Positions 4,520 to 15,745 of a DNA stretch of 32,500 nt are shown here, one piece after another. A program made the translations under genes and the position numbers. The stretch's first letter is position 1, and every line of letters starts with the position of its first letter. The DNA comes from [Chlorobium] sp. 445 (GTDB taxonomy: Bacteria > Bacteroidota > Chlorobiia > Chlorobiales > Thermochlorobacteraceae). The notes below the pieces were generated by a model. It had not been told where the DNA came from and did no database searches. It saw only the letters and a list, made by a program, of their open reading frames with translations. Where the stretch lies: assembly GCA_002763895.1 (NCBI GenBank), contig NSLH01000081.1, positions 1-32,500 on the forward strand, in the 5' to 3' direction.

Positions 4520-5094
4520 ATGTCTGAACATATGAATCAAGAGCAAGAACGCATTTTTACGCTATCGAATTTCCTAAGCATTCTGCGCGTGCTGCTTATC
4601 CCGCCCTTCATTTACTTTTTTCACACGGTGAAAAACTCACCGCTTTTATTCTCGTGCTGATTGCAATTTCCACAGATTGGTTCGATGGACGCGTTGCGCG
4701 CTGGACTCATACCGTTTCTGAAATGGGCAAAATTTTGGATCCGCTTGCCGATAAACTTTCTGCTGCGTTGTTAGGCATTTATTTTGCTTACCTTGGCGAA
4801 CTGCCCGTCTGGTTTGTTGTCTTTCTCTTCTTGCGCGATGCTATCATCTTCGCTGGTGGTATCTATGCCAAATATCGTAAGCACATTCTCACTACGGCTC
4901 TGCCTGCAGGCAAATGGGCGGTCGGGTTTCTTGCGCTGCTCTACGCCATGATTGTCTTCCCTTACCCCGTTGATTTTTCTCTGGCGAAAACCGTGTGCCT
5001 CTGGGCTGCAACAGCACTGCTTTTCGGCTCTTTTGTACAATACGCCCTCCGCTTCCGCGATATTCTGCTCGGTAAAGAGGTCGTCAACCTTTGA
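4520..5094 (+). CDS. CDP-alcohol phosphatidyltransferase, PgsA-like (frameshifted)
   Basis: The reconstructed protein is about 191 residues, the usual size of CDP-diacylglycerol-glycerol-3-phosphate 3-phosphatidyltransferases, which make phosphatidylglycerol phosphate in the inner membrane. The family signature DG-x2-AR-x8-G-x3-D-x3-D is complete in DWFDGRVAR followed by GKILDPLADKL; several hydrophobic helices follow. The N-terminal part (TLSNFLSILRVLLIPPFIYFF) is in one frame and stops at 4660, while the signature lies in another. One added base in the T run at 4616-4621 (or removal of two) joins them as IYFF-S-H-GEKLTAFILVLIAIS, the expected sequence. I read this as an assembly indel. The start could be 4517, 4520 or 4532, all in frame. 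PgsA is the best guess, though another CDP-alcohol transferase is possible. Confidence 0.8.
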
Positions 5095-5106
5095 AGACTG
5101 GCTGAC

Positions 5107-5914
5107 TTAAATCGTCGTAGAATTTCTTTCTACAATTGCGCGAATGCCATAGAGCACAGCATCTTTTTCTACACGGTCGATTGTGGCAACAGTGCGTGCA
5201 AACACCGCTGCATCCCCACCCGTTGCTACCACCAAAATTTTTCGATTCTCGATACTTTCTTTTCAGTTCAACTTTGAGTTTTGCAATCAAGCCTTCAGTT
5301 TCTGCTACTTTACCCCAAAATAGCCCCGCCTCCAAGCACTCTACTGTGCTACTTCCAATCAACTTCGACGTTTTACGCAGTTGAAACTCTGGCAATTGTG
5401 CGGCACGTTGCCATAGCGATGCTGCAGCTGTATGTGCGCCGGCAAGAATTAACCCGCCAAGATAGTGAGCACCGGAAGTCAGAATGTCGTAGGTAATCGC
5501 TGTGCCGAAATCAATCACGATTACGGCCTGGCTCGGAAAGTGCTCTGCTGCAAACGCTGCAACCGCAATTCTATCTGCGCCCAATGTCTGCGGTGTCCGA
5601 TAGCGTATTTCAAACGGTAACTTCAATGAAGCAGATATGATGTAGGACTCTGCGCGCACATTTTTTTCGAGCCATGGCAAAAACGTTTGTGTGGCTTTCG
5701 GCACAACTGATGCCACTCCAATATGCTGAATCTGCTCACGGCACTTGCTTATTTCCTCACCCCAGGCTTTGGCTAAACACTTGGCGTTGCGCTGGTTGAG
5801 CAGTTGCGCTGTTTTTACGGTGCTGCGCCAGAGCATTCTCTTGCCTCTGAGTACAGCAAGTGTGGTATGTGTATTGCCAACATTGAGTGCAAGAATCGGC
5901 TTAGTAGCGGACAT
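5107..5914 (-). CDS. coaX: type III pantothenate kinase (CoaX), frameshifted
   Basis: CoaX phosphorylates pantothenate, the first step of coenzyme A synthesis. Visible motifs are the N-terminal phosphate loop region (LNVGNTHTTLAV), GADRIAVAA and DFGTAITYDIL. The upstream frame runs off into a cysteine-rich nonsense tail ending at 5084. Removing one base from the five-base run at 5238-5242 (A on the coding strand) restores VVATGGDAAVFA...VLYGIRAIVER and a stop at 5107-5109, giving about 268 residues, normal for the family. ATG at 5912-5914 is the likely start; a GTG immediately upstream is possible. The start overlaps the end of birA, and the two are probably one transcript. Unusually, Asn replaces the Asp expected before the GNT motif, a residue linked to catalysis in studied CoaX enzymes. 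Confidence 0.85.
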
Positions 5915-6648
5915 CACTTATCTCAGTTTGGGCATAACGCACGCGCTCTCCTTCTGACTCGATCCACAGAAATCCTACTTCATCGACATCAACAGCTTTA
6001 CCTGTACGCACTCTGCCTTCGTGCCGAAAGACAACGACTTTGCCAATCATCGTGCAGCGCGCTTTCCACGCATGCAGCATCTCGGCAGTCTTACCTTGTT
6101 GAAAAACATGATACTGTTCATCTAAGCGTCTTAGCAATGCCGTCAGCGTCTCTGTGCGGTCAAAGTCTTGCGCTGTGAGCAATTTGAGTGATGTGGCCGG
6201 CAACGCTTCGTCGAACACAGTTTGATTGACATTCAAGCCGATGCCAAGCACCACGGTGTGCGTCTGTGTTGAATTGCTGCGTGCTTCTACCAAGACTCCA
6301 GCAATTTTTCTTGTTCAAGACCACAACATCATTCGGATACTTGATTTCAGTTGGCAACTGCGTCAAGTGCTCGACAGTCTCAGCAACCGCTTCTGCTGCA
6401 AGCAGTGAAAGCAGTCCCAAATTCGCCCCATGCGTTCTGGGGCGCAATACAACGGACATCAGTATGTTTTTGCCTTTTTCGGCTTGCCACCTTTTACCCG
6501 CTCGACCTTTTCCTTGTGTCTGGAAGTCCGCAATTAGCACACTGCCTTCGGACAAGTCACCAAGACGAAACGCCTCGGTATTTGTGGAGTCAATTTCATC
6601 GTAGACGAGAATGTGCTTGCCGATGCAGTAGTGCGTGGCACAGGCCAT
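5901..6648 (-). CDS. birA: biotin-[acetyl-CoA carboxylase] ligase (BirA), frameshifted
   Basis: This enzyme activates biotin as biotinyl-AMP and transfers it to the biotin carboxyl carrier protein. The N-terminal part has YDEIDSTN, the nucleotide-binding QGKGRAGKRW, and KYPNDVVV with the catalytic-region Lys. The frame then fails at LNKKNCWS. Deleting one base of the five-base run at 6305-6309 gives NKKIAGVLVEAR, the canonical continuation, followed by GIGLNVN and the C-terminal SH3-like domain ending at 5901. The repaired length is about 248 residues. There is no N-terminal helix-turn-helix, so it is a ligase only, not a repressor-ligase. I chose ATG at 6646-6648; a TTG at 6670-6672 would add eight residues. 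It sits between the PH-like membrane protein and coaX in a minus-strand run; birA/coaX adjacency is common in bacteria. Confidence 0.87.
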
Positions 6649-6675
6649 TTTTATACGCTGTGAATCTAACAAGGC

Positions 6676-9733: not shown

Positions 9734-10552
9734 ATGACCATCAACACACCACGTCTTGCTGCTAGTACATTTTTCATCTTGTGTTTTGCTCTTGCTGTAT
9801 GGGCGTGTCGAACCGTAGCGATTACAGGACGCCAACAGCTGAATCTTATTCCGAGCCAAACATTGCTCTCCATGAGCTATGAGCAATACGGCGCATTTCT
9901 TTCGCAAGCACGTCTAAGCAATAATCAAGAGCAAACGGCACTTATCAGGCGCGTTGGTCGTCGCATTCAAGCCGCCGTTGAGAAATACTTTGCCGATCAA
10001 GGGCTCTCCGATCAATTGCGCGGGTATGCGTGGGAATTTAATCTGGTAGAAAGTCCCGAAGTTAATGCGTGGTGTATGCCCGGCGGAAAAGTTGTCTTCT
10101 ATACGGGCATTTTGCCTATCACGAGAGATGAAGAAGGACTTGCCGTTGTGATGGGGCACGAAATTGCTCATGCAGTTGCAGAGCACGGCAATGAGCGTAT
10201 GAGCAAAGGCTTACTGGCTCAGCTCGGCGGTGTAGCGTTGGATGTTGCCTTGCAAGATAAGCCGCAAGAAACCCGTCAACTTTTCTTTGCTGCATATGGC
10301 TTAGGCGCACAATTTGGCGTGCTGCTCCCGTTTAGTCGCCTGCAAGAAAGTGAAGCTGATCGTTTAGGACTTATTTTTATGGCGATGGCAGGCTATAACC
10401 CAAATGCCGCACCTGAATTTTGGAAACGCATGGCTGCAGTGAGCGGACAAAAAGTGCCAGAATTTTTTAGCACACACCCGTCTGACGAAACCCGCATCCG
10501 AGATTTACAAAACGCTATTCCTGAAGCCATGAAGTACTATCAGCGTAATTAG
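9734..10552 (+). CDS. M48-family zinc metalloprotease lipoprotein (LoiP/YggG-like)
   Basis: The 272-residue protein starts with a signal peptide ending in a lipobox (AVWAC, Cys25), so it is probably a lipoprotein facing the periplasm. TGRQQLNLIP just after the Cys is characteristic of the LoiP/YggG and BepA-like group. The zinc site is HEIAH at residues 142-146, with the third ligand in the downstream LQESEADRLG motif. AWCMPGGKVVFYTGIL precedes the catalytic helix as in the family. Members degrade or help fold outer-membrane proteins. No TPR domain follows, unlike BepA. It lies 32 bases after ruvB. The frame is intact and the stop at 10552 is followed by a short gap. Confidence 0.9.
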   Translation: MTINTPRLAASTFFILCFALAVWACRTVAITGRQQLNLIPSQTLLSMSYEQYGAFLSQARLSNNQEQTALIRRVGRRIQAAVEKYFADQGLSDQLRGYAWEFNLVESPEVNAWCMPGGKVVFYTGILPITRDEEGLAVVMGHEIAHAVAEHGNERMSKGLLAQLGGVALDVALQDKPQETRQLFFAAYGLGAQFGVLLPFSRLQESEADRLGLIFMAMAGYNPNAAPEFWKRMAAVSGQKVPEFFSTHPSDETRIRDLQNAIPEAMKYYQRN

Positions 10553-14050: not shown

Positions 14051-14761
14051 ATGACAAAGAAAGAAAAGTTTCGACGCGTTATAGAGATATTGAGCAAGAA
14101 ATTCCCCGCACCCCGAACAGAACTTGTCTATCAAACACCGTTTCAACTCCTTGTCGCTACAGTTTTAGCTGCGCAATGCACTGACAAACGCGTCAATATG
14201 GTTACTAAGCCGCTCTTTGAAAAATACCCTGATGCCCAAGCCCTGAGCCAACTTTCGCTCTCTGAACTGCGCGAGCATATCAAATCCATCAATTTTTTCA
14301 ACAATAAAGCAAAGCACATTTACGAGCTTACACGTGCGCTGCTTGAACGCCATCACGGTGAAGTGCCACAAACCTTAGAGGAACTGACCGCACTGCCCGG
14401 GGTCGGTCGCAAAACCGCCCATGTTGTGATGAGTAACTGCTTTGGCAAGCCTGTCTTAGCCGTCGATACCCATGTCTTTCGCGTCTCCAATCGACTTGGT
14501 CTTGCAAAAGCCAATGATGTCCTGCAGACCGAGAAACAGTTAATGAAATATCTCGCGCCAGAAGAGGTTGGAAATTTTCATCACTACCTCATCTTGCATG
14601 GTCGATATACCTGCAAAGCTCAGTCGCCTGCTTGCCACAGCTGCGAGCTTACCTCAATTTGTTCATACTACAAGCAGCATTTGCACACAGCAAGCGAGCG
14701 TTCACGGTCAAATGGCAAGTCTGCTTTAGGGCGCAAGCATCTTACGCGGCAGACATCGTAA
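14051..14761 (+). CDS. nth: endonuclease III (DNA glycosylase/AP lyase)
   Basis: Nth removes oxidised pyrimidines and nicks the abasic site. The helix-hairpin-helix LPGVGRKTAHVV carries catalytic Lys121. AVDTHVFRVSNRLG carries Asp139. The [4Fe-4S] loop has the exact C-x6-C-x2-C-x5-C spacing (Cys188, 195, 198, 204). The enzyme core ends there; about 30 further residues are basic and serine-rich (for example SERSRSNGKS), making it 236 residues, longer than the E. coli enzyme (211). The last 20 bases overlap the 3' end of the BLUF gene on the other strand. It is probably co-transcribed with nusB and the phosphatase. Confidence 0.95.
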   Translation: MTKKEKFRRVIEILSKKFPAPRTELVYQTPFQLLVATVLAAQCTDKRVNMVTKPLFEKYPDAQALSQLSLSELREHIKSINFFNNKAKHIYELTRALLERHHGEVPQTLEELTALPGVGRKTAHVVMSNCFGKPVLAVDTHVFRVSNRLGLAKANDVLQTEKQLMKYLAPEEVGNFHHYLILHGRYTCKAQSPACHSCELTSICSYYKQHLHTASERSRSNGKSALGRKHLTRQTS

Positions 14762-15188
14762 GTGGGTTACGACGGCTTTTCTCTATGAGTTCATGGAGCA
14801 ACTCGATGCAAGACTCCGGCTCCATCGCAAGTGGGTCAAATTCCCTGACCGCGCTATATTTGCTATACTCTGCTTGGAATTCACGTGCCGTAGCGAAAAA
14901 TACAAGCGACATGTCCCAGCCGCGAAACATCCGCTTGGCAACGCGTTTGAACTCAAGGAGTTTGATATCTTTATGACGCGGATCCTGCATGATGCGAGAG
15001 AGCGTGTAGTTTACTTCGTGAATGCCGCCCTCTAAGGTTTGCAGAAACTTTCCTTCGCAAAACAGCAGCGCTCCTGAAATAGCCCGTTTTGCGTTGTTCA
15101 GACTTGCTTTGCGAGAGATTTCTTTGACATCCTCAAGCGAAAGAGTATCGCTTGCCACACTGTAATAGACTAGTCGGTAAAGTCCCAT
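14742..15188 (-). CDS. stand-alone BLUF-domain blue-light photoreceptor
   Basis: BLUF proteins bind FAD and sense blue light through a hydrogen-bond switch. This 148-residue protein begins MGLYRLVYYS and carries all key residues at the same numbers as cyanobacterial Slr1694/PixD: Tyr8, Asn32 (in NNAKRAISG), Gln50 (in FLQTLEG), Trp91 and Met93 (in RGWDM). RIMQDPRHKDI is the conserved loop. After the BLUF core there are only about 50 residues, probably two helices, and no output domain, so it should signal by binding a partner, as short BLUF proteins do. ATG at 15186-15188 is at the correct distance from Tyr8. It is divergent from a STAS-like gene across 122 bases and overlaps the 3' end of nth by 20 bases. 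Family assignment is firm; output is unknown. Confidence 0.92.
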   Translation of the reverse strand: MGLYRLVYYSVASDTLSLEDVKEISRKASLNNAKRAISGALLFCEGKFLQTLEGGIHEVNYTLSRIMQDPRHKDIKLLEFKRVAKRMFRGWDMSLVFFATAREFQAEYSKYSAVREFDPLAMEPESCIELLHELIEKSRRNPLTMSAA

Positions 15189-15269
15189 TTGATGACTATA
15201 AGTTTGATTTTTAAGTATTCTTCTTCAAACGCTTGCCTGAGTTCTTTGGTTTTTAGCGCGCGAAAAAAA

Positions 15270-15300
15270 ATTGCAACTTTACACTGATATCCTATGTTTG
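15270..15300 (+). promoter_or_regulatory. Bacteroidota-type promoter (ATTG-N19-TATGTTTG)
   Basis: TATGTTTG at 15293-15300 matches the TAnnTTTG -7 element, and ATTG at 15270-15273 lies 19 bases upstream, where the -33 TTTG is expected. The ATG at 15311 is only 10 bases further, which implies a very short leader. This is the best promoter match in the window and drives the STAS-like gene away from the BLUF gene. Confidence 0.5.
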
Positions 15301-15310
15301 GTTTGAGTTT

Positions 15311-15745
15311 ATGTATGAAATAGATAATTCAACATTTCCGATTATTACGCTGCGCAGCGAATCGCCAGTGAGCCAAGCTATGCTCAAGGATTTTTACAAG
15401 TCCATTCGCGCAGCGGTTGAGCATAAAGTAGCGTTTGGCGTTTTCTATCGCTGCGATGCAACGGAGCCTAAACTGGCGCGTGCAGCGCCCCCTAACATCA
15501 TGACCGAACAACTGCCACACGACCTTCCCGAATACTTTGCTGGATTAGTTGCCGTTATGAAATCGACGAAAATGATTCGCTACTTACGTCCCATTTCTGT
15601 CGGTTTAACTCACGCTATGCCGAAGTGTCCCGTTAAAATCTTCACTTGGGGCGAAGAGCAGAACGCTAAAGCATGGATTCAAGCGCAAATTGAAATCAAG
15701 CAGGGTCGACTTGCTTGGGCGCGCCTTGCACAGAAAACCAGTTAA
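15311..15745 (+). CDS. STAS/SpoIIAA-like small protein, unknown function
   Basis: The 144-residue protein has alternating strands and helices with no signal peptide or membrane segment. The pattern FPIITLRSESPVS, then FYKSIRAAVEHKVAFGVFYRCDA, a helix ending in IRYLRPISVGLTHAMPKCPVKIF, and a final EEQNAKAWI resembles a family of small STAS/SpoIIAA-like proteins from myxobacteria and other groups, in which a late strand and an A-W helix are conserved. That resemblance is from memory and not strong. It is divergent from the BLUF gene, which raises the possibility that it is the photoreceptor's partner or shares its regulation; this is inference. The start ATG is fixed by the nearby promoter-like element. 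Confidence 0.7.
   Translation: MYEIDNSTFPIITLRSESPVSQAMLKDFYKSIRAAVEHKVAFGVFYRCDATEPKLARAAPPNIMTEQLPHDLPEYFAGLVAVMKSTKMIRYLRPISVGLTHAMPKCPVKIFTWGEEQNAKAWIQAQIEIKQGRLAWARLAQKTS

Follow-up and report, generated by a model that had tools for sequence, protein, structure and literature searches.

PixD-type BLUF sensors have been studied mainly in cyanobacteria. The 'short' type without an output domain makes up the majority of BLUF proteins (PMC4844311). In Synechocystis, the CheY-PATAN regulator PixE is bound by PixD in the dark and released in the light; a stable complex requires the C-terminal part of PixD, and the truncated protein fails to form it (PMC5899715, PMC5812497). A different arrangement is described for YtvA, in which a LOV domain and a true STAS domain are joined in one protein (PMC10949197).

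The window, i.e. the whole stretch of 32,500 nucleotides that was analysed, belongs to a 2.8-Mb genome assembly (G000) and was compared with two congeners (G001 and G002) and with a family set of nine genomes. G002 matches the public record of Candidatus Thermochlorobacter aerophilum, and from this placement together with general knowledge the setting is presumably that of a chlorosome phototroph. The window encodes a BLUF protein which resembles PixD (Slr1694 of Synechocystis; Tll0078/TePixD of Thermosynechococcus) in its whole-length alignment, in the register of its photocycle residues and in its C-terminal part. However, no pixE-type gene adjoins the BLUF gene in this genome. What adjoins it is a divergent gene for a small STAS-like protein. 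The locus thus shares with the YtvA-type LOV-STAS photoreceptors the link between a blue-light sensor and a STAS-like protein, here by gene position only, but the sensor is a BLUF protein and its neighbour is unfused and probably a very distant SpoIIAA-like protein.

The BLUF protein

The BLUF gene is located at 14742–15188 on the minus strand and encodes a protein of 148 amino acids with a BLUF core (residues 3–93) and a C-terminal part of approx. 50 residues. The STAS-like gene follows at 15311–15745 on the plus strand (144 amino acids), and both start codons are separated by a divergent intergenic region of 122 bp (15189–15310), exactly as in the original prediction. Pfam BLUF (PF04940) matched residues 3–93 with 94.1 bits (E 5.8e-27) at a cut-off of 25 bits, and no second Pfam domain above the cut-off was detected in the protein. 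This supports the earlier view of a short BLUF protein that lacks an output domain and needs a partner. The photocycle residues listed at that time, Tyr8, Asn32, Gln50, Trp91 and Met93, are all present and are invariant across 11 BLUF proteins from the family and one outgroup genome.

When compared with solved structures, the protein matched best to PixD from Thermosynechococcus (Tll0078/TePixD, 1x0p) with an E-value of 8.7e-28. Residues 1–141 of 1x0p aligned with residues 1–139 of the query, so that the match covers the whole protein and not the core alone. Slr1694 PixD (2hfn) was the next solved match (E 1.4e-20), and the PixD structures outranked AppA, photoactivated cyclases and BlrP1. Given this full-length match to PixD, the protein was classified as a PixD-type short BLUF protein.

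The amino-acid identity to the counterparts in G001 is 71% for the BLUF protein and 78% for the STAS-like protein, with synonymous sites saturated in both cases. Both genes are therefore considered real and under strong purifying selection. The BLUF protein is apparently intact and apparently functional; flavin binding and a red shift of the flavin spectrum are predicted from its sequence.

On its other side, the BLUF gene is convergent with nth (endonuclease III-like, 14051–14761 on the plus strand), which was named from sequence inspection and not from a family search. The 3' ends of the two genes overlap by 20 bp (14742–14761). Elsewhere in the window, a biotin-ligase-like gene is split over two frames (5901–6672, minus strand), and the tail of a CoaX-like gene is seemingly out of frame (5084–5917, minus strand). 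Biotin-ligase matches in G004 (L035) lie in a single frame, and the breaks in the two window genes reflect assembly frameshifts or real lesions. Rfam gave no match on the window.

The divergent neighbour

The 144-aa protein reached 15.4 bits with Pfam SpoIIAA-like (PF11964), which is under the cut-off of 25. A profile-profile comparison (hhalign) against 25 PF11964 proteins of the phylum was collinear over 109 columns with a pairwise P of 0.00085 and a score of 27.0. None of 200 column shuffles scored as high, the top shuffle reaching 20.6, while 19.1 was the highest score among the other proteins compared. A distant SpoIIAA-like relation is therefore likely, but the protein is not a member of PF11964 by Pfam's rule, and the identity to this family is 14%. 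With the SpoIIAA-like family (solved relatives 2ook and 2q3l), it shares in the C-terminal half the end pattern K-x-[FY]...A-x2-W-[IL]; it differs from this family in a longer middle loop and a longer C-terminal helix. The other protein with the score of 19.1, which is within the shuffle range, is a 122-aa protein of G004 (L035:12857-13225) without a Pfam match, encoded approx. 3.4 kb from the BLUF gene of that genome.

With Pfam STAS (PF01740), the window protein had no match up to E 10, and the two congener proteins had none up to E 1. By inspection, none of the three sequences contains the D-S-[SAT]-G phosphosite known from partner-switching STAS proteins. The label 'STAS-like' is backed by Pfam below the threshold only, but the profile-profile comparison supports a distant relation. 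Partner switching, the mechanism proposed together with this label, is left unsupported because the phosphosite is missing and the protein is at best near PF11964.

Homologues of the protein were confined to the genus (G000, G001 and G002) with 74–78% identity. A profile search of 394 genomes of the phylum yielded no credible homologue outside the genus; the one match covered 25 residues with E 0.006. In a scan of 84,980 species genomes, which may leave out records very near the window, a single match was obtained, namely the copy of Ca. Thermochlorobacter aerophilum. No relative was found in viral contigs, and the profile search of PDB sequences returned only 1yqh with E 0.61. The AlphaFold model, calculated from an alignment of the window protein and its two congener proteins, was weak with a pLDDT of 56.5 and a pTM of 0.52. 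On this model, Foldseek found nothing at E ≤ 0.001, and VIA-align gave Z-scores of 3.5 or less, mostly for ribosomal proteins; 3bl4, a protein of unknown function, had Z 2.3 and 28% identity over 47 residues.

Conservation of the gene pair

Every one of the nine family genomes carries BLUF, as does a single f2 genome (G009). The STAS-like gene is present in three of the nine and absent from the other six, all of which contain BLUF. The divergent arrangement is preserved in G001, with a metF-like and a MerR-type gene as its flanks instead of nth and yebC. The pair thus stayed joined although the neighbours on both sides changed, which argues for a light-dependent pair within the genus and against an adjacency by chance. 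In G002, the STAS-like gene comes directly after the block leuDH-nusB-phosphatase-nth, and no BLUF gene intervenes. The only two BLUF genes of this genome are arranged in tandem on a different contig (C16). They cluster with BLUF genes of another genus and may not be its own, as the assembly is 13% contaminated. Whether or not they are contaminants, the STAS-like gene of G002 is without a paired BLUF gene; it is linked to nth, as expected for a chance arrangement.

The BLUF proteins of G000 and G001 form a clade of their own (98/100) on a long stem of 0.57 changes per column, and no BLUF of this clade was detected anywhere in G002. The long stem would be expected after a change of partner and so favours a functional pair, as does the strong purifying selection acting on both genes alike. 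The persistence of the STAS-like gene in G002 without any detected BLUF of this clade speaks against it. The simplest history would be an ancestral order nth-BLUF-STAS, from which BLUF was lost in G002 and the pair was relocated in G001.

The background of gene order conservation was counted by hand from DNA matches of window positions 10000–32500 in G001, using neighbour pairs of which both members could be placed (n = 20). In these small counts, 11 of the 20 pairs were retained in G001, among them three of four divergent ones (BLUF/STAS-like; 16607/17748; 23711/24466), and four of four convergent pairs were broken. The retention of BLUF/STAS-like therefore adds little: the adjacency is kept in one of two congeners, which is about the background rate and weighs against a functional pair. 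The intergenic region does not help such a pair either. Its alignment with G001 was patchily conserved with neither a common promoter pair nor a conserved control element, and a promoter scan of the 122 bp gave nothing above shuffles. The conserved adjacency that the original prediction had named as its check was accordingly found in G001, but not in G002 or in the six family genomes without the STAS-like gene.

Given the fluid gene order within the genus and a STAS-like gene that is not known outside of it, the adjacency arose rather probably by chance after rearrangement, and the STAS-like protein would then have a role unrelated to light. This estimate concerns the adjacency alone, which would be meaningless, and it is compatible with a PixD-type sensor that signals to a partner encoded elsewhere. 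By comparison, it is rather unlikely that BLUF and the SpoIIAA-like protein act as a light-dependent pair in the genus, whose output would have to come from direct binding and not from phosphorylation-based switching. A PixD-type BLUF protein that switched its partner in this genus and now controls the genus-specific SpoIIAA-like protein through the divergent pair is an unlikely case. We know of no SpoIIAA-like output for any BLUF sensor.

Other neighbours and PATAN proteins

The neighbours of BLUF vary between the genomes. A gene for a HAMP-HisKA-HATPase histidine kinase lies directly 3' of BLUF in G002 and G007, and a C25 peptidase gene and a putative tRNA nucleotidyltransferase gene are found next to it in G004. 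A signal from BLUF to the kinase would agree with this adjacency in two genomes and with kinase orthologues in G001, G004 and G006, but it is quite improbable since in these three the kinase lies on a contig other than that of BLUF and G000 keeps its BLUF without an orthologue (best match 31% identity, partial).

In the tandem of G002 (L033:3494-9377), a HAMP histidine kinase gene lies behind each BLUF gene, and the second kinase copy is fragmentary beside undetermined bases. The first is succeeded by a FecR-domain gene, in an order that looks alike in G007 (L038). In G009, the BLUF gene is convergent with a gene for a KaiC-like ATPase (L040:8584-10101).

All nine family genomes contain PATAN (PF14332) proteins, as do the f2 and f3 genomes; 49 f4 genomes gave none. 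Their architecture is REC-PATAN or PATAN-REC, and their genes have roadblock/GTPase (mglBA-like) neighbours. In the PATAN-receiver protein of G001, PATAN is N-terminal as in PatA. In G009, a REC-PATAN gene is located approx. 3.9 kb away from the BLUF gene, and an mglA-like gene is closer at 2.8 kb. The window genome contains PATAN genes that are not adjacent to BLUF, and no BLUF-PATAN adjacency was found in the window's own family. As the absence of PATAN is confined to one family, the co-occurrence of BLUF and PATAN is confounded with phylogeny. Two further PATAN-containing genomes (G010 and G012) had no BLUF match.

One PATAN gene of G000 (L087:3224-4590, C11) has a first part that is not in frame and a separate receiver ORF beside it. 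G001 has one intact PATAN-receiver gene, and the split in G000 is a frameshift or an assembly error.

Discussion

Our best explanation, which we hold with about even confidence, is that the BLUF protein is a stand-alone sensor of the PixD type whose partner gene lies elsewhere, and that its adjacency to the STAS-like gene is a lineage-specific arrangement and not an established module. Chromophore, photocycle and oligomer change (in PixD a light-dependent change between dimer and decamer) would be as in PixD, judging from the conserved residues and the protein's likeness to it. Excitation of the flavin would lead to a hydrogen-bond switch at Tyr8/Gln50 and to a movement of Trp91/Met93, and a change of the BLUF oligomer would then release or capture a separate partner. 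A PATAN-receiver protein may be the best candidate for this partner by analogy to PixE, which serves the cyanobacterial PixD, and the output could be surface motility.

A partner encoded elsewhere is favoured by the family-wide presence of BLUF, although the STAS-like gene occurs in only a third of the family genomes, and by neighbours of BLUF that change from the STAS-like gene (G000, G001) to the kinase (G002, G007) and the C25 peptidase (G004). Against a PATAN-receiver partner stand its phylogenetic pattern, the PATAN genomes without a BLUF match and the lack of adjacency in the family. The divergent BLUF clade of G000 and G001 could moreover reflect a new partner.

If the SpoIIAA-like neighbour were nevertheless the output, this would be a new signalling route for a BLUF sensor. 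The relatives of the green sulfur bacteria possess a family-wide set of BLUF proteins together with PATAN-receiver and mglBA-like genes. This set suggests that light control of the PixD/PATAN type may reach another lineage of phototrophs.
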